Positions 6,506 to 30,571 of a stretch of DNA of 64,000 nucleotides are shown here, piece by piece (position 1 is the stretch's first letter; every line of letters starts with the position of its first letter). Below the pieces are notes generated by a model, which worked only from the letters and a program-made list of their open reading frames with translations, was not told where the DNA came from and did not search any database. The translations under genes and the position numbers were made by a program. This DNA is from Planctomycetota bacterium (GTDB lineage Bacteria > Planctomycetota > UBA1135 > GCA-002686595), in contig NZBA01000063.1 of NCBI GenBank assembly GCA_002686265.1, positions 82,634-146,633 on the forward strand, read 5' to 3'.

Positions 6506-8398
6506 ATGTACACCCTCCTCGCAACGTCCCTCTTGGCCGCCTGCCCCCCCCCGGCCATGGGCGCATCGGGCGAGTTGTCCGAGGGGTTGGTGAGCGCGTT
6601 GGCGTCCGCGCGCGGGGAGCTCGTGCGGGTGAGCGTCGTGCTCGCCGACCAGCTTCCCCCCCAGGAACTGATCGCGGCCGGCACCCTGAGCGAGCGCCGC
6701 TTGCGCCGGGCCGAGGTGATCGGCTTGCTCGGCACCCACGCCAGCGCCTCCCAGGCGGACTTGCTGGCGGAGCTGGGAACCCTGCGCGCCGCCGGACACG
6801 CGCGGCGCATCGTGCCCCTGTGGGTCGCGAACGTGGTGAGCGTCGACCTGGATCGGACGGCGGCGCTGGCCGTCGCCGCGCGCCCCGACGTGGCCAGGCT
6901 TCACTACTCCCGGCCGCGCGGGAGTGAGGTCCTGTCCTCGGCGTCGGCAGCGACCCCCGTCCTCGCGCCCGCCGCCGTGGGCGGCGGTTTGCAGTGCGGC
7001 GTCGACCTGATCGGGGCGGACGATGTCTGGTCGCAGCACGGCATCGACGGGAGGGGCGTGGTCGTGGGCGTGATCGACACCGGCCTGTGCCTCACCCATC
7101 CCGACATCGCCGGACAGGTCTGGCGAAACCCGTTGGAGATCCCCGGCAACGGGATCGACGACGATGCCAACGGCTACATCGACGACCGGAACGGCTGGAA
7201 CTTCGAGAGCCAGAGCAACGATGTGACCGACCACCACGGCCATGGCTCCCACGTGGCCGGCACCTTGGCCGGGGACGGCACCGGGGGAGCGCGCTGCGGC
7301 GTGGCGCCCGGGTGCGAGGTGATGGTGCTGAAGTTCTTCAACGATCTCGCGGGGGAGGCATCGGTCTGGGAGGCGATGCAGTACGGCCTCGACAACGGCG
7401 CCGATGTTCTCTCGGCCAGCTTGGGCTGGCACCACTCCTGGGGGCCGGACCGGGCGATGTGGCGCACGATCTGCGACAACGTCACCGCCGCGGGGATGGT
7501 GGTCGTCTTCGCGGCCCACAACTTCGGCTGCAACAACCCTCCCGACGACGTGACGACGCCCGGCGACGTGCCCACGGTGATCGCCGTCGGCGCCACCGAC
7601 TGCAACGACGTGAAAGCCGGATTCAGCAGCTGTGGACCGTCGACCTGGCAAGGCGTGCCCCCCTACAACGACTTCCCCTATCCGCCCGGCTTGCTGCGGC
7701 CGAGCATCAGTGCTCCGGGCGACCAGGTCCTCTCGCACCAGGGTTGCGGCGGCTACGTCACGATGAGCGGCACGTCGATGGCGACGCCGCACGTGGCGGG
7801 AGCCCTGGCCTTGATGCTGGAGGCGGACCCGACCCTCGACCAGTACTCGGCGGCGGGGATTCTGGAGGCGACGGCGGTCGATTTGGGACCGCCGGGGCAT
7901 GACAACGAGACCGGCGCCGGCCGCCTGGACGCTCTCGCGGCGGTGACGGCCGCCCTGGCCAACGGGAACTTCTGCGCGGCGAAGCAGAACTCCTGTGGGA
8001 GCCAGCCATCGATCAGTGCCGGCGGGCAGTCGAGTGCCTCGGCGACCTCCGGGTTCTGGATCGTCGGCTCGGAGGCCCACGCGAGCGAGGTCGGCATCCT
8101 GGCCTACACCCACGCCGGGGCGGCGTTCCCGCCCCTGCCCTTCTTCGGCGGCGAGCTGTGCCTGCGCTTTCCCCTGCGCCGCGGCCCGATCGTGTCCAGT
8201 GGCGGTACCCCCGGGCAATGCGACGGCTCGCTCGACCTGGACATGAACGCCTTCGCCTCGGGCAACGCCGGCGGCGCCCCCGCGCCCTTCCTGCTCGCGC
8301 CGGGGACGACGGTCCACTGCCAGTGGTGGGCCCGAGACAGCGGCGACCCGCTCGGCGTCTACCTCACCGACCGGCTCGAGTTCATCGTCGGTCCCTGA
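6506..8398 (+). CDS. Secreted subtilisin-like (S8) serine protease with extra C-terminal domain
   Basis: GVIDTGLCLTHPDIAG (Asp), HGHGSHVAGTLAG (His), GYVTMSGTSMATPHVAGALAL (Ser) catalytic motifs; signal peptide. Confidence 0.92.
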   Translation: MYTLLATSLLAACPPPAMGASGELSEGLVSALASARGELVRVSVVLADQLPPQELIAAGTLSERRLRRAEVIGLLGTHASASQADLLAELGTLRAAGHARRIVPLWVANVVSVDLDRTAALAVAARPDVARLHYSRPRGSEVLSSASAATPVLAPAAVGGGLQCGVDLIGADDVWSQHGIDGRGVVVGVIDTGLCLTHPDIAGQVWRNPLEIPGNGIDDDANGYIDDRNGWNFESQSNDVTDHHGHGSHVAGTLAGDGTGGARCGVAPGCEVMVLKFFNDLAGEASVWEAMQYGLDNGADVLSASLGWHHSWGPDRAMWRTICDNVTAAGMVVVFAAHNFGCNNPPDDVTTPGDVPTVIAVGATDCNDVKAGFSSCGPSTWQGVPPYNDFPYPPGLLRPSISAPGDQVLSHQGCGGYVTMSGTSMATPHVAGALALMLEADPTLDQYSAAGILEATAVDLGPPGHDNETGAGRLDALAAVTAALANGNFCAAKQNSCGSQPSISAGGQSSASATSGFWIVGSEAHASEVGILAYTHAGAAFPPLPFFGGELCLRFPLRRGPIVSSGGTPGQCDGSLDLDMNAFASGNAGGAPAPFLLAPGTTVHCQWWARDSGDPLGVYLTDRLEFIVGP

Positions 8399-8604
8399 GT
8401 GCCCGGGCCCCGAGAGGGTCTTCCAGGCTTGTAGTGGGCGTGTGTTGCCGTTTCCCGGCCCTTCCCGGGCGACTTCTGTACACTGAGCCAGTACCGCCGC
8501 CCGCGTGGCAGCCCCGGATTCGACTGGGCTAGCCGGCCCCGCGGCTTCGCTGAGAACGGCAGGATTCCATTAGCGTGCTCACCGCGCTTGAGAGGAAGAA
8601 CGCC

Positions 8605-10205
8605 ATGAACTGCAATACAACCTCACGTTCGCATCTCCGAGGAGCGCGGGATCTCGCACTCCGGTGCCTTCCCGCCACGGTCGCTTGCGCCTTGCTCGCG
8701 CAGGTCGGGCTGGGCCAAACCGGCTTCGGACCGCAAGAGGTGATCTCCTTCGACGCTGACGGCTCCTGGGCCGTCTTCTCGGCGGACCTCGACGGGGACG
8801 GGGACCTCGACGTCCTCTCGGCCTCTCGCGACGACGACAAGATCGCGTGGTACGAGAACGTCGGCGCGGGGAGCGGGGTCGGTGGAGGCTCCTTCGGTCC
8901 GCAGCGCATCATCACCTCTTCGGCGGACGACGCGTGGGACGTGTGCGCGGCGGACCTAGACGGGGATGGGGATGCCGACGTGCTCTCGGCGTCCTACAAC
9001 GACAATCTGATCGCCTGGTACGAGACGACGGGACCGGGACCTTCGGTCTCCCGCGGGTGATTTCCAATACCGCCATCGGTGCGACGAGCGTTCACACCAG
9101 CGACCTCGACAGGGACGGAGACTACGACGTCCTGTTCACCACCCTCACCAACAACCGCGTGAGCTGGGCGGCGAATCTCGGCAACGGGCTCTTCGGAGCG
9201 CCGACGGTGATCACGCAGCTGGTTGACTGGCCCCAGAACGTCACCACGGCGGACCTCGACCTCGACGGAGACGCTGACGTCCTGACCGCTTCGCACGGGG
9301 ACGACAAGATCGCCTGGTACGAGAACACGGAGAATGGCTCTGGAATCGTCGGGTTCGGTCCCCAGCGCGTCATTTCCACGGACGCCGACGGGGCCAAGCA
9401 CGTGTCCACGGCGGACCTGGACGGCGATGGAGACTTGGACGTGCTGGCGGCTTCGGACCTCGACGACAAGATCGCGTGGTATGAGAACCAGGGCGGCGGG
9501 AACTTCGGCTTGGAGGAGCTGATCAGCCTCACCGAGGACGGGGCGCGCTGTGTCGAGGGCGAGGACCTCGACAGGGATGGCGACATCGACCTCCTCGCGG
9601 CCGCCTTTCACGCGGGCACGGTCACTTGGTACGAGAACCTGGGCGGCTCCTTCTCTGCGCACCTCATCTCCAGCGATGCACTGAGAGCCAACGATGTGTT
9701 CGCAGCGGACCTCGACGGAGACGGTTTCGCCGACGTTCTCTCGGCCTCGCGGCTGGACAACAAGGTCGCCTGGTACCCGAACACCGGCGGCTGTGTCCCG
9801 CCCACGCATTTCTGCCAGACGAGTCCGAATACGGTGGGGCCGGGGGCGCTGATCGGAAACATCGGCTCCACCAGCCATTCCGCCAATGACTTCGTGCTCA
9901 CCGGGAGCTTCGCACCGGCAAACCAGACGGGGATCTTCTACTACGGCAGCGTCTCGATCTCCGAGCCCTTCGGCGAGGGGATCCGGTGCATCGGTGGCAC
10001 GACCTTCCGCCTGATCCCGGTGTCCATTCTCCCCAGCGGCCGCGCGTCCTTCGCCCTCGACCTGAACCAGCCTCCGGCCAACTCGCCGCCGGGCGAAATC
10101 ACCCCTGGCTCCACTTGGCTGTTCCAGTTCTGGTATCGCGATCCCACCGGAGGTCCGGCGGGGTTCAACTTCACTGGAGGGCTCGAGGTCCGGTTCTGCC
10201 CCTGA
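8605..10205 (+). pseudogene. Secreted FG-GAP/VCBS repeat protein, split by a single-base frameshift near 9024
   Basis: Repeats 'DLDGDGDxDVLSAS..DDKIAWYEN' continue from the first frame (8605-9060) into another frame (to 10205); inserting one A at about 9024 restores 'WYENDGTGTFGLPRVIS'. Confidence 0.85.
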
Positions 10206-10348
10206 TCGGATTCCACGTAGCGCACCCCGCTCTTCCACGCTCTTCCACGGCTCGTCGCCGTGGGAGAGCGGGCCCGACCGCTCGCGGACCATCCAGCGCC
10301 GGCATCGGGTGAGGATGACCGCTGGTCTCGGCGGCGGCGGACGACAGA

Positions 10349-11395
10349 ATGGGGGGCATGACCTCGGCCGACGCTCGCGACTCCTCGCCTCCCTCTCCGG
10401 TTCGCGTCTTGGCGGGCGGCGTGCTGATGGGGCTCGCGAATCTGGTGCCCGGTGTGAGCGGCGGGACGATGATCCTGGCGGTGGGGCTCTACGATCGCTT
10501 CATCGCCGCCGTGGCCCAGGTCACCAGCCTACGCCTGAGACGTGACTCCCTGGTCTTCCTGGCCTTGATAGGCGTCGGCTCCGTGGTGGCGATCGTCTCC
10601 TGCTCGGGTGTGGCCGTGGACCTGGTGAGCGAGCGGCGCTGGGCGGCCTACAGCCTGTTCATCGGCATGACCTTGGGCGGGACGCCCGAGCTCGCGCGCG
10701 AGTGCCGGCCCGTGGGCCCGTCGGTCTTGATCGCCTTCGCCGGCGGCTTGGGGCTGATGGCGGGTCTGGCCTGGGGCGTGGGCGACGCGGGCCTGGCGGT
10801 CTCGACGCCCCTGTTGATCGGCGTCGGCGCGTTGGCGGCCTCGAGCATGATTCTGCCGGGAATCAGCGGTTCTTACATTCTGTTGATCTTCGGCGTCTAC
10901 GAGGTCGTGATCGGCTCGCTCAGTGCCCGGAGCTTGCTCGAAGACACGGCGGAGTCCCTGCGCGTCGTCGCACCCGTGGTGCTCGGCTCCGGGGTGGGGA
11001 TCGCGCTCCTGAGCAACCTCCTGCGGCGACTCCTGACCCGCAGCCCGCGACCTTCGCACGCCGTCCTGCTCGGTTTGCTCGTCGGCTCCGTGCTGGGCCT
11101 GTGGCCCTTCCAGGAGCCCCTACACGCCGACCTCGCCCACGGGGGGAGGCGCGAAGTCGTGGAGCGCGTGCTGGCGGGAGCCACGGCGGGGGAGCTTGCT
11201 GAAGAGGGGGTCGCTGGCGTCTCGGAGCAAGTGGCGCAGGAGTGGCGGCAGGACTACGGGACCCTGAGTGTCTCCGAGCGCAAGCGCGCCGCGGCGCGCC
11301 TGCTGCGCTTCGCTCCCGGTGCGGGGCAGATCCTCGGGGCATTGGCTCTGGTCGTCGCGGGCGCGGCCGTGACCCGCGCCCTCGCGGCGCGCTGA
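10349..11395 (+). CDS. DUF368 family membrane protein (PopT-like polyprenyl-phosphate transporter family)
   Basis: GVLMGLANLVPGVSGGTMILAVGLYDRFI and LPGISGSYILLIFGVYEVVIGSL signature segments; multiple TM segments. Confidence 0.85.
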   Translation: MGGMTSADARDSSPPSPVRVLAGGVLMGLANLVPGVSGGTMILAVGLYDRFIAAVAQVTSLRLRRDSLVFLALIGVGSVVAIVSCSGVAVDLVSERRWAAYSLFIGMTLGGTPELARECRPVGPSVLIAFAGGLGLMAGLAWGVGDAGLAVSTPLLIGVGALAASSMILPGISGSYILLIFGVYEVVIGSLSARSLLEDTAESLRVVAPVVLGSGVGIALLSNLLRRLLTRSPRPSHAVLLGLLVGSVLGLWPFQEPLHADLAHGGRREVVERVLAGATAGELAEEGVAGVSEQVAQEWRQDYGTLSVSERKRAAARLLRFAPGAGQILGALALVVAGAAVTRALAAR

Positions 11396-11598
11396 CGGGG
11401 GCCCCCAGTGCGGGGGGCGCGTCGTGGCACCGCTCGCGGCGGGATCAGGGACGGATGGCGCACGAATCCGCAACCCGTTGCTGGGGGGCGTATAGTGATG
11501 TCTGACCCTGCGGGAGATGCGAGCGCCTGCCCATCGCCGCCTCGGTATGCCCGGACGGCCTCCGTCGGGGTCAGTTCCTCTCAGATGACCGACCGCCC

Positions 11599-13320
11599 AT
11601 GAGCCACACTCCCTCGGACCGAAGCGCGAAGCGACCTCGCGCTCTCACCGTGTGCTGCACGGCCGTCCTGATCTGGACGGGCATCGCGCTCCCTTCGGCG
11701 CCGGCCGTGGGCGCCGGCACTCAGCTGACGGCCGTCCACACCACCCGCGTCGCGGATCCCAAGCTGGACGGCGGAGGCGTCGAGGTCTCGTTCCTGCTCT
11801 CGCCGACCGGAATCAACGAGCGCGTCATCGTCGAGGCCTTGAATCCCCACGGAGTCGTCGTCTGCACCGTGGCCGATGCGCAGATGACGGGTTCGGCCGA
11901 TCCGATCGAGCTCTTCTGGGACGGCCTGAGCGACCAAGGACGCTACCTCGACACCGGCGACTACCAGCTGCGCGTGCGCCTCGCCTCGGGGGCCGCCGCC
12001 GACCTCCTCGCGCCCGTTTCCCTCGTGCGCCTGGGCGTGTGCGAGATCGAGGCCCAGGCGAGCGGGACCGCCGACTACCACCTACCCGAGAACGAGTTCC
12101 AGCTGGTCTACTTCAAGAAGGGCGGCGTGCTCTACAAGTACTACGCAACGCCTGCTATCCACGAGTACGTCTCCCTGGCCCAGGCGGGGGAGGTCTCCGA
12201 CCTGGACCTGGACAACGGTGAGCCGCGCCCGGCGGTCGCGGTCCACACGGCGACCGACGAGCCGGTGCTGTCGGGCTCCGCCTACGAGACACGCTCCTAC
12301 AACTACCCTCTGTGCTACGCCGTCGGCGCGCGCCCGCGCTTCGAGTTCACCTTCGGCGCTACGAGCACCAGTGCGGGAGGCGTGCAGCAAAGTGCCGGCT
12401 ACCCCGTCGGGGGCGTCGAGCTGAGGTTGACCGTCGGGGGCGGGGGAGGAGCGTGGACGGCGCAGTCCGACGCCGTCACGCCCGGAGGAGTGGCCGTGTT
12501 GGTGGGACCGAAGCTGCCCGCTTCCCTCGCGCGGCGCGAGTGGGAACTAGAGCAGGCCTACGAGTACAGCAGCGACGGCGGGGCGAGCTGGAGCGCGGTC
12601 CCCGGCTCTCACACGAGCGTGCACCGCTTCTACACGACCCTCGCCACGCCGCGCTTCACGCAGAACGACAGCGGCCAGCAATACGCGGGCCCCTGGGTCG
12701 AGGTGATCGACTACGTCACCGGCTGGTCGGAAGCCCTCGGGATCGGCGCACGCGATGCCGCGGGCGTCGTCGAGGCGGGCATCCGAGGCTTCTTCGGCCA
12801 GCAGGGGGCCGTTCCGACCTCCCTCGAGGGCGTCATCTACGACGCCTATCCCCAGGGAGGAGACGGCGGCGCCAACCACTACTTCATCAACAACCAGCAC
12901 CGAATCGACCTCTCGGCGCTCTTCGCATCCCACGCCAACGGGGTCTTCGTGAACTGCTCGGACTGCGCCGGGAGCACCTCGACCATGCTGGCGATGATGG
13001 GGATCGAGAATGTGCAGCTCGTGCATCTCGGCTTCATGCAGCTGCGGGCTATTTGGGGCATCGGCACCTCGGGCTACACGACCAACCTGTGGGGGAATGG
13101 CCACTCGTTCAGCTACCACAAGATCATCACGCGCGACGGCGGCGTACACGTCTCCGACGCTTGCATGTGGGTGGACGAGGACGGCAACCCCAACAGCACG
13201 CCGGGCGTGCCCGGCTTCAACAACGACCGCGAGTGGGACGGCCAGCCCGCGGGCTACAACTACTTGTCTTCCTACAACAACACCGGCAAGTCCTTGCAGG
13301 ACCTGCCCAAGATCCGTTGA
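11599..13320 (+). CDS. Secreted protein with FlgD-like Ig segment and possible transglutaminase-like C-terminus
   Basis: N-terminal hydrophobic segment; 'FWDGLSDQGRYLDTGDYQLRVRL' FlgD-Ig-like; Cys...His...Asp arrangement NCSDCAGSTSTML / FSYHKII / VSDACMWVD. Confidence 0.6.
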   Translation: MSHTPSDRSAKRPRALTVCCTAVLIWTGIALPSAPAVGAGTQLTAVHTTRVADPKLDGGGVEVSFLLSPTGINERVIVEALNPHGVVVCTVADAQMTGSADPIELFWDGLSDQGRYLDTGDYQLRVRLASGAAADLLAPVSLVRLGVCEIEAQASGTADYHLPENEFQLVYFKKGGVLYKYYATPAIHEYVSLAQAGEVSDLDLDNGEPRPAVAVHTATDEPVLSGSAYETRSYNYPLCYAVGARPRFEFTFGATSTSAGGVQQSAGYPVGGVELRLTVGGGGGAWTAQSDAVTPGGVAVLVGPKLPASLARREWELEQAYEYSSDGGASWSAVPGSHTSVHRFYTTLATPRFTQNDSGQQYAGPWVEVIDYVTGWSEALGIGARDAAGVVEAGIRGFFGQQGAVPTSLEGVIYDAYPQGGDGGANHYFINNQHRIDLSALFASHANGVFVNCSDCAGSTSTMLAMMGIENVQLVHLGFMQLRAIWGIGTSGYTTNLWGNGHSFSYHKIITRDGGVHVSDACMWVDEDGNPNSTPGVPGFNNDREWDGQPAGYNYLSSYNNTGKSLQDLPKIR

Positions 13321-13333
13321 AAGGACGTGGGCG

Positions 13334-14212
13334 ATGAGCGCGACGTATCCCCTGATCTTGTTCGTCTGCTCTGTCTCGCTGCTCGCCGGTCGTGCGGCGG
13401 CCGGGCCCGCGCAAGGGGTCGTCGGAGCGAAGGACCCGCGGCTGGCGGAGGTGCGCGCCCTCTATGGGCGTGACCGCTGGCCGAGTGGTTCGCGGCGCGC
13501 GGGATTTGACCTCGGCGCGGCCGTTCTCGAAGGCTACGCTGGCGCTCGGCCCGCGGGTCTCGAGGGCCTGGTCACGCGACGCTTCCAGGGCACGCGAAAG
13601 GGAGATCGGGGTTTCGTCGTGGAGCTGCGCGTCGGCGACACCGTCGCCGAAGCCCAGGAGCAACTTCTTTCCTGGTTGGCGTCGGCCAGCACCCCCGAGC
13701 GCGTGCCCCGCGCCCGCGAACTGGGCGTCGGGGTGGGCGAGCTCGGTTTTGTCGGCCGCTCCCGCTACGGGGACGATCACCCCGAGTGGATCGCCTTCGT
13801 GCGCGGCAACGTCGCCTTGCGCATCGTCGCGCGCGACTTGCGTTCGGCGGGCCGGCCGCGTCTGGGCGCCGTGGCCCGTGCCCTGGACCTTGGAGTTGCC
13901 GCCGGGCGGCTCTTGGAGCCCGACGAGGTCGTCGAGCACCCTCTGATCACCCGCCTGGCATGTGCGCGCGGGCGAGCCGTGGCGGGGGAGCGCCTGCGGA
14001 TAGAAGTCGCCGCCGAGGATCCTCTGGGGGGGATCGTGCGCTTCTTCTGGCACCTCTCGGGCCCGGCGACGGGCTACATGGAGCGCGACGAGCAGGGCGC
14101 CTGGTGGCTCCACACCACCGGCCCCGGCGAGTTGAAGCTGACCGCCGTGGCCGTGGGCTCCGGCGGGACCTTCACCCGCCGGTCCCTGGCGCTGGTGCTG
14201 GAAGACGACTGA
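13334..14212 (+). CDS. Secreted protein of unknown function
   Basis: Signal peptide MSATYPLILFVCSVSLLAGRAAAG; open frame directly after preceding CDS. Confidence 0.6.
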   Translation: MSATYPLILFVCSVSLLAGRAAAGPAQGVVGAKDPRLAEVRALYGRDRWPSGSRRAGFDLGAAVLEGYAGARPAGLEGLVTRRFQGTRKGDRGFVVELRVGDTVAEAQEQLLSWLASASTPERVPRARELGVGVGELGFVGRSRYGDDHPEWIAFVRGNVALRIVARDLRSAGRPRLGAVARALDLGVAAGRLLEPDEVVEHPLITRLACARGRAVAGERLRIEVAAEDPLGGIVRFFWHLSGPATGYMERDEQGAWWLHTTGPGELKLTAVAVGSGGTFTRRSLALVLEDD

Positions 14213-14214
14213 GC

Positions 14215-14240
14215 GCCTCCCACGCAGGCCTCCCACGCAG
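14215..14240. repeat. 13-nt perfect tandem duplication
   Basis: gcctcccacgcag x2 immediately after the stop of the 13334-14212 CDS. Confidence 0.95.
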
Positions 14241-14252
14241 GTAGGGCCGGCG

Positions 14253-14294
14253 CCTAGATCCCGGCCCCCGAGTCCTAGATCCCGGTCCCCGAGT
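14253..14294. repeat. 21-nt tandem duplication (x2) containing the stop codon of the adjacent sulfatase
   Basis: cctagatcccggcccccgagt / cctagatcccggtccccgagt; on the minus strand reads DSGTGI* DSGAGI*. Confidence 0.95.
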
Positions 14295-15621
14295 CGATGA
14301 GCCCTGTCATCTTGTTCCGCAGGTAGCGGAATGCACTCAGGTCGGTGGCGTTTGGGGTGCCCCCCTTGAGGAGGTTCACTTGTTCCCAGGGGTCGAGCAC
14401 CAAGTTGTAGAGGGCGTACTTCTTGGTGGGAACCTCGAACCAGATCAGCTTGTAGCGCTCGTTGCGGATCGTGCGCGCGGCGAACTCGTACGGTCCCGGG
14501 CCGTTGGGGTGGAAGATCTCCGAGTAGACCGTCTGGCGCTGGGGCAAGGCGTTCGTTGCCTCGAGGTAGGGGTAGGCGCTGACCGAGTCGAGCTCCACGC
14601 CCGGAAGGCTGGCCTCGGCGTCGATTCCGGCCATGTCGGCGATGGTTGCGAAGAGGTCGACGAGGGAGACAAGGTGGCTCACCTCGCGTCCGGGAACGGC
14701 CACCGACGGCCCCGAGATGATCAGCGGCACGTTGACGCCACCCTCGTAGCAGGTCAGCTTGGCGTGGTCAGGGTCGAATGGCGCGACTGTGCTCTCACTG
14801 GGCGTGCCGTTGTCGCCGGCGAACACGATGTTCGTGCGCTCCAAGGTGTCGCTATCGATGCTGGCCAGCAGGCGCCCGATCTCGGTGTCCATGGCCTCGA
14901 TGTCGGCGCAGAAGTAGGGCCGCGGGTCGATGCGCGGACCGGGGTCGGGCAGCTCGACCGTGAAGAGCTCGTCGGGCGGAGTGTGCAGGGGCGTGTGGGG
15001 CGCGTTGAAGGCTACGTAGCAGATCCAGGGTTCCGGGGCGGTCTCGAGCCACTGTCGGGCTGCCTCGACGGTGCCGACGGTCGCGTAGTGGGTGATGACG
15101 GAGAAGTTCCCGTTCACCCAGGCCGGCCAGAAGTAGTAGTCGTACGGCTCCTTGAAGTTGCCTAGGGTGCCGTTGAAGTGATCGTAGCCGGCGATGTTGG
15201 GCGAGAGGCCGCCGCCGACACTGCCGTTGCCGAGGTGCCACTTGCCGATGGCGGCGTGGCTGTAGCCGAGGTCGTCGTGGAGGTCGAACAACTCGGGCAG
15301 GATCACCTCCGAGGTGGGCAGGGCGTAGCTCGTGGGCGCGAGGCCGAGGGCCATGCCGATCCCGGTTCGGAAGCCGTGTCGTCCGGTCTGGATCGCGGCC
15401 CGCGTCGGGGAGCAGACCGGGTTCGCCCACGTGTTGCGGAAGAGCACGCCGCCCGCGGCCAGGGCGTCGATGTTGGGCGTGGGCGCCAGGTCCTGCCCTT
15501 CGGCGTAGGCTCCGATGTTGTCCACACCCACATCGTCGGCCAGCAGGATCAGGATGTTCTCCTGCGCCGTGGCGGTTCCGGCGATGGCGATGAGGGCGGC
15601 GATCTGGATGTTGGTCTTCAT
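14275..15621 (-). CDS. Secreted sulfatase (arylsulfatase family)
   Basis: NILILLADDVGVDNIGAY; CSPTRAAIQTGRH formylglycine motif (C-x-P-x-R); signal peptide MKTNIQIAALIAIAGTATAQ. Confidence 0.93.
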   Translation of the reverse strand: MKTNIQIAALIAIAGTATAQENILILLADDVGVDNIGAYAEGQDLAPTPNIDALAAGGVLFRNTWANPVCSPTRAAIQTGRHGFRTGIGMALGLAPTSYALPTSEVILPELFDLHDDLGYSHAAIGKWHLGNGSVGGGLSPNIAGYDHFNGTLGNFKEPYDYYFWPAWVNGNFSVITHYATVGTVEAARQWLETAPEPWICYVAFNAPHTPLHTPPDELFTVELPDPGPRIDPRPYFCADIEAMDTEIGRLLASIDSDTLERTNIVFAGDNGTPSESTVAPFDPDHAKLTCYEGGVNVPLIISGPSVAVPGREVSHLVSLVDLFATIADMAGIDAEASLPGVELDSVSAYPYLEATNALPQRQTVYSEIFHPNGPGPYEFAARTIRNERYKLIWFEVPTKKYALYNLVLDPWEQVNLLKGGTPNATDLSAFRYLRNKMTGLIDSGTGI

Positions 15622-16048
15622 GGCTGGGGGTTCCTCCGCGGGTGGCAGATCCGAGCCGGCTCTCGCCTCCGGCGCGGGAATGGGGAATCCGAATCAGTAT
15701 CTGCGCGTGAAGTGTGCCACGGAATGCCCGTGCTCGCCACGGAACGGACAGTTTCACGCGGTTTCCCCCTACCCAGGCGCCAGGGAGCGGGTGCGGCGGG
15801 CCGTCGCGACCCCCTCAGTCTCGTTGGGGCCTCAGGCTCGGGGCCGGTGCGGTCAGCGGTGGCGCGAAGCCCTCATCCGGCCTCGCTCGAGGCCCCGATC
15901 CGCGGGATTGGGCGAGGGCGGAGCCCGAGTACCACTCATGTCCCCCCCCCGGGGCGCTCGGATGCGCTCGACCGTCGCGGTCGGGCTACCTGGGAGCCGT
16001 GCGACACGCTCTCGCACGTCCGGGGGGCGCGAGTAGGATGCTCCCTCC

Positions 16049-17431
16049 ATGAGCATCGCTCTCCTGCTGGGCGGGGCCGCCATCTCTCTGTCCGCGGCGT
16101 CGGCACCGGGGCACGAAGTCACTGGCGATGTGCCGGCGCGTCCCAACCTGCTGCTGTTCGTCTCCGACGACCAGCGCGCCGACCACCTCGGGTGCGCCGG
16201 CCACCCGTTCCTGCGAACACCGACCATCGACCGCCTCGCGAGCGAGGGCGTGCGCTTCGAGAACGCCTTCGTGACCACCGCGATCTGTGCCGCCAGTCGC
16301 GCCAGCCTGTTGACGGCGACCCGCGAGGGGACTCACGGGTTCACCTTCGGCACGCCCGCGCTCTCCCTCGCCCGCGTGCGCGAAGCCTACCCGCGCCTCC
16401 TGCGCGAAGTGGGCTACGAGACGGGGTTCGTCGGCAAGTGGGGGATGCGCCTGGAGCAGGGAGCGCGCGCGCTCCTTCTTGATCACTTCCATGCACTCTC
16501 GCGCACTCCCTACTTCAAGTTGCAGGCTGACGGCGGCGAGCGGCACTTGACGGACCTGACAGCCGAGGGGGCGATCGCCTTCCTCGACGGCTTCGACGGC
16601 GCGGCGCCGTTCTGCCTGACCGTGAGCTTCCATGCTCCGCACGCCGAGGATTCCGACCCGCGGCAGTACTTCTGGCCGCGCGCCCAGGATGGGCTGTACG
16701 AGGAGTGCGCCATCCCGCCGGCGCCGCTCTCGCATCCCTCGGACTTCGAGTCTCTGCCGCGCTTCCTGCGCGAGTCCATGGGCCGTGAGCGTTGGGGCTG
16801 GCGCTTCGACACGACCGCCAAGCGCGAGGCGATGGTGCGCGGGTACTGCCGCATGATCACCGGCGTCGACGCCGCCGTCGCGCGCGTGCTCGCCGCCCTC
16901 GCCCGGCGCGGGTTGGACGAGAACGCGGTGGTGGTTTTCACCAGCGACAACGGCGCCTTCCTCGGCGAGCGCGGCTTGGCGGGCAAGTGGCTGATCTACG
17001 AGGAGTCGATCCGCGTACCCCTGGTTCTCTTCGACCCGCGAGAGGACCGTCCCCTACGCGTGGCGGTCGAGGATGCGACCGTCTTGAACCTCGATATCGC
17101 CCCGACGCTCCTGGACCTGGCCGGAATCGAGGTTCCGGCCTCCTACCAGGGGCGGAGCTTGTTGCCGCTGCTCGCCGGCAGCGCGAAGTCATGGCGCACG
17201 GACTTCCTCTACGAGCACCGCTTCGAGCATCCCGACATCCCTGCCAGCGAGGGCGTGCGCGATGGGCGTTGGACCTATGCTCGCTATCCGGGGCAGCGCC
17301 CGCCGGCCGAACAGCTCTTCGACCGTGCGCGGGATCCACTCCAGGCGCGCAACCTGGCGGCGGACCCCGCGCACGCCGATGTCCTCGGGCGCCTGCGGAG
17401 GCGCTGTGAGCGCCTGCTGGCCGGCCCCTGA
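16049..17431 (+). CDS. Secreted sulfatase
   Basis: PNLLLFVSDDQRADHLGCAGHPFLRTPTIDRLASEGVRFENAFVTTAICAASRASLLTA (C-x-A-x-R type formylglycine motif). Confidence 0.92.
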   Translation: MSIALLLGGAAISLSAASAPGHEVTGDVPARPNLLLFVSDDQRADHLGCAGHPFLRTPTIDRLASEGVRFENAFVTTAICAASRASLLTATREGTHGFTFGTPALSLARVREAYPRLLREVGYETGFVGKWGMRLEQGARALLLDHFHALSRTPYFKLQADGGERHLTDLTAEGAIAFLDGFDGAAPFCLTVSFHAPHAEDSDPRQYFWPRAQDGLYEECAIPPAPLSHPSDFESLPRFLRESMGRERWGWRFDTTAKREAMVRGYCRMITGVDAAVARVLAALARRGLDENAVVVFTSDNGAFLGERGLAGKWLIYEESIRVPLVLFDPREDRPLRVAVEDATVLNLDIAPTLLDLAGIEVPASYQGRSLLPLLAGSAKSWRTDFLYEHRFEHPDIPASEGVRDGRWTYARYPGQRPPAEQLFDRARDPLQARNLAADPAHADVLGRLRRRCERLLAGP

Positions 17432-17537
17432 GCTCGACCGGGCCGGCGCGGTCGGGCCCGCGCCACAGGGCGGTCCGCGGCGAGCCGTGGTCGCCTTGAG
17501 CGCGTGCCGGGGCGCAGTGCCTCAGGCGCGTGGATCC

Positions 17538-19225
17538 ATGCCCAGGAATCCGATGACTCGCTGTCTGTTGCCGACCCTTGCCGCACGGTCCCTCACCTGC
17601 GCGGCGGCGCAGGCTCAGGCCCTGCAACACTCCTTCATCGGCCAGGGCGTCCAGGATCACTTCGGCTACGCCGTGGCGGGCGGGGGAGACCACGACCTCG
17701 ACGGCCACGACGGCCTGATCGTGAGCGCGGTCTTCTACTTGACGCAGGAGGGCTACGTGCGCGTCCTCTCGGGACGCACCGGCGAGGTGCTCTACGCGAT
17801 CGAGAGCGAACACCGGACGGCGGGCTTCGGCTCCGACGTCAGCGGGCTGGGAGACGTCAACTCAGATGGCGTCGAGGACCTCCTCATCGGCGCCTGCTGG
17901 GACAGCGTCGACGTGCACTACGCGGGAGCCGTGCACGTCTACTCGGGGCGCAGCGGCCAGCCGCTCTAGGTCCTCTCGGGAACCGACGCCTTCGACCTGT
18001 TCGGCAAGTCCGTCGACTCCGCGGGTGACGTCGATGCCGACGGAACGCCGGACTTCATCGTCGGCGGTCCCGGTTCGGACCGCGACGGGGAGAGCTGTGG
18101 CTCGGCCTGGGTTTGCTCGGGTGTGGACGGAGCATTCCTGATGGAGTTCGTGGGCGACAGTCCCGGGGACCGCCTCGGCTTCTCCGTCGCCGGAGTCGGT
18201 GATCTCGACTTCGACGGCCACGATGATCTTCTGGGCGGCGGCTTCTCCCGCGGCGGCAGCCGCGAGGGCCACGCGCGCGTGTTCTCCGGAGCGGGCGGAA
18301 GCACTGTCCGGACCCACGGCGGCGCCTAGCAGTCGGCCACGGGCAGTTCGGTTGCCAGGCTCGGTGACGTGGACGGCGACGGCGCGGGTGACTACGCCGT
18401 GGGGGCCTACCTCGAGCGCGACCCCGCTGACTCTTCGCTGATCCGGGGCTCGGTGACGGTCTACTCGGGGCAGAGCGGCGCTGAGCTCTACAAGCTCTGG
18501 GGCGAGGTCGACAGCACCCTCGGCTGGTCCTGCGACGGCGCGGGAGACGTGGATGGAGACGGGGTCGGTGATTGGATCGTCGGGGCACCCTCGGTCGATA
18601 CTTCCGCCGGAGCGCAGCGCTACGCGGCGGTTCACTCGGGACTCGACGGCAGCCTCCTGTTTCGGATCGACGGAGAGGACGTGCAGTTCGCCTTCTCCCT
18701 CCGCGGAGCGGGGGACGTGAACGGAGACGGACTCGCGGATCTCATCGTGGGCAACCTCAAGGAGAACAGCGCAGCCGAGAATGCCGGTGCCGCCCACGTC
18801 TTCCTCGGCGGCTCTCCCGCTCCCCAGCGGTACTGCAGCGCAGGGCCGAGCTCCGTCGGCGCGGGTGCGCTGATCGACTTCCGCGGTGGCCCTCGCTCTC
18901 GATCAACCAGTTCAGCCTGCTCGTGACGGGAGCCGTTCCCGGCCAGGCCGGGCTGATTCTCCATGGTGGGCCCTCTTCCGCGGTGCCCTTCGGCGACGGC
19001 GTGCGTTGCAATGGTCCTCCCGCCTGGCGCCTGCCCGCCGTCGTCGTCGACGGCGACGGCGCGGCTGAGTCGGCCCTGGACTGTTCGGTTCCGCCGGCGG
19101 GCTTCGGGCCCGGCCAGCTCCTGCCCGGCGTTCCGTGCGGGATTCAGTTCTGGTACCGCGATCCGGCGGCGGCGGGTGCCGGGTTCAACCTCTCGGACGC
19201 CCTTCTCTTCACACCCTGTCCCTGA
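17538..19225 (+). pseudogene. FG-GAP repeat secreted protein interrupted by two in-frame TAG codons and one frameshift
   Basis: FG-GAP repeats (GLGDVNSDGVEDLLIGA, GVGDLDFDGHDDLLGG, GAGDVDGDGVGDWIVGA) in one frame with TAG at 17967 and 18327; frame changes at about 18890 into 'PSLSINQFSLLVTG...FWYRDP...FTPCP'. Confidence 0.85.
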
Positions 19226-30473: not shown

Positions 30474-30571
30474 GGGAGTGGATCCGTGCTGGTGTGCGGC
30501 CCGGTCTTCAAAGCCGGTTGGGTCTCGTGAACAGCGGGACCGGTGGGTTCGATTCCCATGCACTCCCGCCA
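30474..30571 (+). tRNA. selC: tRNA-Sec (anticodon UCA), 98 nt including encoded CCA
   Basis: Aligns position-for-position with E. coli tRNA-Sec from memory: GGGAGUG acceptor, 6-bp D stem CCGUGC/GUGCGG, CCGGU-CUUCAAA-GCCGG anticodon arm, 7-bp variable stem GGUCUCG/CGGGACC, T arm GUGGG-UUCGAUU-CCCAU, GCCA 3' end. Confidence 0.95.

Follow-up and report, generated by a model that had tools for sequence, protein, structure and literature searches.

The locus raises the question of why a subtilase and two FG-GAP repeat proteins, all apparently secreted, end in the same C-terminal domain, and whether this domain, hereafter the tail, sorts its hosts or attaches them to the cell surface.

Three tails in one locus

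The tails lie where a reading made from the DNA letters (hereafter, the sequence-only reading) had placed them in the window, that is, the whole 64-kb stretch of DNA analyzed here. A profile HMM built from the copies in the same genome, with the window copies left out, matched all three: the subtilase tail at 7964-8395 (E = 7.9e-14), the tail of the first FG-GAP protein at 9804-10202 (E = 2.8e-48), and that of the second at ~18830-19222, in the part 3' of a frameshift (E = 2.8e-31). As a control, an HMM of all copies gave 0 matches in ~8,000 reversed ORFs from ~90 genome stretches. The relevant features of the window are as follows:

6506..8398 (+), secreted subtilase (S8 peptidase), host protein 1 (Pfam PF00082, E = 1.1e-50)
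7964..8398 (+), subtilase tail domain, diverged subfamily, type III (CxAKxNS..., QWWARD), ending at the stop codon
8605..10205 (+), FG-GAP repeat protein with signal peptide, host protein 2 (FG-GAP_3 in both frames)
9804..10205 (+), type I tail domain of the first FG-GAP protein (ends ...GFNFTGGLEVRFCP), ending at the stop codon
17538..19225 (+), remnant of the second FG-GAP protein, host protein 3, with a signal peptide from 17538 (frames, sequence, domain search)
18828..19225 (+), type I tail of the broken second FG-GAP gene, crossed by the frameshift (leave-window-out HMM)

The subtilase gene (6506..8398) has a start and a signal peptide, MYTLLATSLLAACPPPAMGASG, that can be read directly from the sequence, and its tail, initially described as a diverged copy, is indeed a separate subfamily of the same domain in which the predicted strand order is kept. 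Of these host genes, two are interrupted, either as pseudogenes or through assembly errors. The first FG-GAP gene is split over two frames, with the signal peptide from ~8605 in frame 1 and the remainder in frame 3, and the reading frames together with the sequence place the frameshift near 9030-9050. Two in-frame TAG codons (17967 and 18327) interrupt the second FG-GAP gene (17538-19225), and its tail contains a frameshift near 18890; this gene is either a pseudogene or a carrier of sequencing errors. Profile search revealed no fourth tail copy within the 64-kb window. The two sulfatase-like genes located between the tail-bearing genes, at 14275-15621 (-) and 16049-17431 (+), both lack the tail. 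Elsewhere in the window, ARAGORN called a selenocysteine tRNA at 30474-30571 (+), and an ORF at ~21.3-22.6 kb resembles SelA (selenocysteine synthase), so that the window may encode a selenocysteine system.

Number and position of the tails in the genome

A single tail used as a query retrieved 120 places in the genome to which the window belongs (G000; 5.07 Mb, 92% complete). With an HMM of 61 tails (E up to 1e-4, 150 of 200 candidates scored), at least 128 copies were detected, an estimated ~3% of the proteins as reckoned from the 5.07 Mb rather than from a gene count. The median pairwise identity among full copies is 37%. The stretches around the 120 copies yielded 125 ORF records, of which 122 are distinct after removal of three repeats of window genes. 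Each of the 125 records contains exactly one tail, and in 114 of the 122 distinct ORFs, the tail ends 0-1 residues before the stop. Of the eight exceptions, two are fragments. In the other six, the tail stands behind the signal peptide or in mid-protein, with an FGE-sulfatase or beta-helix domain after it. Non-terminal copies, with another domain after the tail, thus account for ~5%, so that the domain does not depend on a free C-terminus.

Four such proteins (L083, L095, L060, and L088) combine the tail with a subsequent FGE-sulfatase domain, and in L090, a signal peptide precedes an N-terminal tail and a right-handed beta-helix-like region. An FGE-type domain is also present in GldK/PorK of type IX secretion; that this domain is common to GldK/PorK and the four tail proteins is probably a coincidence. 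Several other copies in this genome are fragments or are broken by stops or contig ends (C111:2441, C34:5972, C12:6700, C135:137665, C15:22380, and C108:126). These broken copies, which resemble the second FG-GAP gene of the window, reflect either frequent decay or assembly errors.

Host proteins and exchange of tails

Signal peptides were identified by a rule that combines a basic n-region, a hydrophobic stretch, and a small residue at the cleavage site. This rule assigns a signal peptide to 94 of 110 complete hosts, compared to 64 of 210 neighboring ORFs (p = 6e-22), and several hosts that fail the rule show a visible signal peptide with an uncharged start. With the tail removed, 83 hosts sort into 42 groups that share no similarity with one another. 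Dozens of Pfam families are represented, nearly all of those listed being of secreted kinds: FG-GAP, subtilase, glucose/sorbosone dehydrogenase, arylsulfotransferase, matrixin- and reprolysin-type proteases, C-type and legume lectins, CotH, lamin-tail, sulfatase, amidase, phytase-like, metallophosphatase, and plastocyanin. The 42 host groups and the excess of signal peptides bear out the proposal that the tail is carried by unrelated secreted proteins.

Similar hosts bear different tail subfamilies, and the single-linkage host group that includes the window subtilase bears four tail kinds. On the tail tree, host labels change at least 19 times, with a minimum of 6 and an average of 29 for shuffled labels; therefore, tails and hosts have been exchanged repeatedly, yet not freely. 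This pattern bears on one alternative, namely, that exported proteins carry the tail as a cap for folding or stability or as a pro-domain, possibly cleaved and with no targeting information. Such a role would suit a domain that is compact, confidently folded in the models described below, and usually located at one end of the mature protein. However, the occurrence of several tail subfamilies within one host group argues against any host-specific folding match, and for a generic folding aid, absence from most of the other planctomycetes searched would be odd. We consider a capping role improbable.

Distribution of the tail

A scan of GTDB genomes revealed 80 loci, nearly all from Planctomycetota or from organisms labeled as uncultured or unclassified bacterium. 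These loci contain 128 foreign ORFs with one tail each, and in 125 of them, the tail ends at most two residues from the stop. Across the own and foreign ORFs, the terminal share is ~93-98%. The claim that the domain is shared only at C-termini hence stands for 114 of 122 own and 125 of 128 foreign ORFs and fails for the internal copies; these are infrequent, and the hosts are signal-peptide proteins rather than cytoplasmic ones.

In a first scan, 53 of 392 Planctomycetota genomes were positive. Tails from distant families have a broader form (YGxGxxGSxG...PFxGGTLLV...Q...DP...SNGL), likewise located at the stop, and a broader profile built from 28 of them raised the number of positives to 78 of 392, with none detected in the remaining 314. 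The search of planctomycetes with a tail profile suggested in the sequence-only reading therefore extends the family well beyond the locus: the 78 positives comprise all 41 genomes of the same order and 37 others in ~15 families. Positive genomes in the 392-genome scan usually contain many copies (a reported count of 11 means at least 11), and fuller scoring in two distant families, f44 and f24, gave 27-86 copies. All 40 targeted hosts from other genera, mostly of distant families, end in the tail at the stop; by the simple rule, a signal peptide is present in 32 of 40 complete ones. The tail had no match in PLSDB plasmids, and spread by plasmids was rejected for this reason.

Sequence relationships and predicted structure

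No Pfam-A model covers the tail, with isolated weak matches obtained for the 61 and 28 tails scanned. The same sequences matched no NCBIfam model at E up to 0.1, including type IX models; NCBIfam does contain models of type IX tails. Sequence searches of the PDB revealed no convincing relative. Antibody light chains also matched the tail profile, but only over a brief FG-x-G segment, and these matches were discounted as chance. A description of the domain was not found in the open-licence literature, which is not proof of absence. The tail is therefore undescribed in the protein databases, with no model in Pfam or NCBIfam, in agreement with the initial impression that it is not an existing characterized domain.

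AlphaFold2 modeling of the first FG-GAP tail of the window together with 80 foreign tails yielded an all-beta structure (mean pLDDT 97.0, pTM 0.90), and the subtilase tail was modeled with the same strand order (pLDDT 83.6, pTM 0.78). Structure prediction, proposed along with the original observation, thus gave a confident model, a predicted Ig/Fn3-like beta-sandwich of ~120-140 aa. In Foldseek searches of the PDB with both modeled tails, the best neighbors were mostly of the Ig/Fn3 type, with a TM-score of at most 0.51 on the query and none at E < 1e-3; the weak neighbors include adhesin repeat and carbohydrate-binding proteins, none significant. BFVD, a viral fold library, contained nothing significant for the tail model. 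Conservation within the family of the window is highest at G59, C62, R69, and the Q-x-W-x-R-D-P block, in which Q and D are the only residues invariant across the broad superfamily. Cysteines are located near both ends and at RC in subfamily I and have another layout in subfamily II, and some members lack any conserved Cys. Given the two layouts and the Cys-less members, disulfides are not universal, being likely in some tails but not general. The description as a longer, folded, Cys-containing domain accordingly stands for the fold and for most members but not for those without a conserved Cys.

The fold brings to the fore a second alternative, that the tail is a CBM- or lectin-like Ig/Fn3 module for substrate binding or adhesion, which keeps secreted enzymes on particles, matrix, or polysaccharide and has no sorting role. 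The Ig/Fn3-like fold with its weak, non-significant adhesin repeat and carbohydrate-binding neighbors, the tolerance of a non-terminal position in ~5% of the copies, and host kinds suited to particle-attached life are all compatible with adhesion. However, repeated or internal copies are common for CBMs and adhesive Ig domains, whereas the tail is single in every ORF examined and terminal in ~93-98%, and hosts such as the amidase, phytase-like, and plastocyanin proteins would have no need of a common ligand. We regard a purely adhesive role as rather unlikely.

Candidate machinery

Known sorting enzymes do not follow the tail. Sortase was detected in 0 of 45 genomes, with control genomes positive in three cases. 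Exosortase was found in 13 of 30 tail-positive and 4 of 15 tail-negative genomes and was not found in several tail-rich genomes, among them G030, G196, G367, G019, and G045. The genome of the window encodes an exosortase homolog (L203, G000:C24:10290-11168; E = 6.7e-30), and judging from this sequence match, it may have a PEP-CTERM-type system beside the tail. Secretin is present in 45 of 45 genomes, tail-positive and tail-negative alike; therefore, hosts could leave through a type II system, but this system cannot be the specific partner. Judged by their distribution across genomes, exosortase, sortase, and the type II secretin were each rejected as a specific partner of the tail.

A further alternative would make the tail a genuine CTD of type IX secretion, occurring in a planctomycete: it is C-terminal, attached to Sec-exported proteins, and predicted to adopt an Ig-like beta-sandwich like the RgpB CTD (PMC4804311). 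Against this, neither the 61 nor the 28 tails match NCBIfam, and SprA_N (PF14349) was not detected in 26 genomes of the family nor in 31 chosen genomes (27 positive and 4 negative), a search in which the control genomes also gave no match, leaving absence unproven. In addition, the literature describes the type IX system as confined to Bacteroidetes. We consider a true type IX CTD very improbable.

Proposed role of the tail

Taken together, single copies at the end of many exported proteins point, with some confidence, to a folded C-terminal domain by which certain Planctomycetota target or attach their secreted proteins. From these features, we infer that the tail directs its hosts to, or fixes them at, the cell surface or exterior. 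Hosts are predicted, for the most part, to cross the inner membrane via the Sec signal peptide; the tail would then fold in the periplasm, where the Cys-bearing subfamilies probably form a disulfide; a putative envelope receptor would recognize the fold rather than a linear motif and would either pass the cargo over the outer membrane or hold it at the cell surface. In the internal copies, the tail lies between the signal peptide and an FGE-sulfatase or beta-helix domain; therefore, if anything is recognized at all, it is the fold and not a free C-terminus, which shifts the balance somewhat toward attachment as opposed to a strict export tag. An argument against targeting is that the same distribution could arise if a domain with another role had spread within particular lineages.

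A more specific form of the targeting reading takes the tail to mark proteins for export by an undescribed system for outer-membrane secretion or surface display. Such a system would have its own receptor or translocon, would be confined to several Planctomycetota lineages, and would be functionally a counterpart of type IX outside Bacteroidota; this we put forward tentatively, at short of even chances. To our knowledge, how planctomycetes place many of their enzymes and structural proteins on or beyond the outer membrane is poorly known, and the tail family suggests an unrecognized route for sending proteins to the surface or attaching them there. With one domain marking at least 128 proteins in a single genome, and with its presence in some lineages and absence from many others, partial phylogenetic profiling, the approach that revealed exosortase, and tail-swap localization become feasible. 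Many hypothetical secreted proteins would also gain an annotation from the tail, along with an indication of their probable location.

Comparison with known systems

Like the LPXTG signal of the sortase system, where it serves surface attachment, the tail is a C-terminal label on varied secreted proteins, but it contains neither LPXTG nor a hydrophobic tail, and sortase is missing from the 45 genomes. Fibronectin-III and bacterial Ig-like adhesin repeats, the best Foldseek matches, share the overall fold class predicted for the tail; unlike them, the tail is never tandem here, and no match reaches E < 1e-3.

PEP-CTERM consists of a short motif, a transmembrane helix, and a basic end and shows a many-copies-or-none distribution (PMC1569441). 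The tail resembles it in this spread, in its signal-peptide proteins and diverse hosts, and in being a C-terminal homology domain. However, it is a soluble folded domain ending ...GFNLSDGLEVTFCP, with no PEP motif or transmembrane helix, and exosortase does not track it; the likeness to PEP-CTERM drawn in the sequence-only reading is therefore wrong in mechanism.

The nearest known kind is the type IX CTD, shown in the case of RgpB to be an Ig-like beta-sandwich functioning as a signal for outer-membrane export (PMC4804311). For the tail, too, an Ig-like beta-sandwich is predicted, and this domain likewise occurs once per protein, at the C-terminus of many unrelated proteins exported by Sec. 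It differs in its length of ~130 aa and nine predicted strands, compared to seven in the CTD, in the conserved Q-x-W-x-R-D-P and RC motifs with no family-model match, in its few non-terminal copies, in its phylum, and in that SprA was not found, in a search with no positive control. The likeness to type IX tags thus holds for predicted fold and for behavior but extends neither to the family models nor to SprA, the search for which was uncalibrated. The best reading of this comparison is that the tail acts like the Bacteroidota type IX CTD, yet would belong to a separate family with separate, putative machinery.
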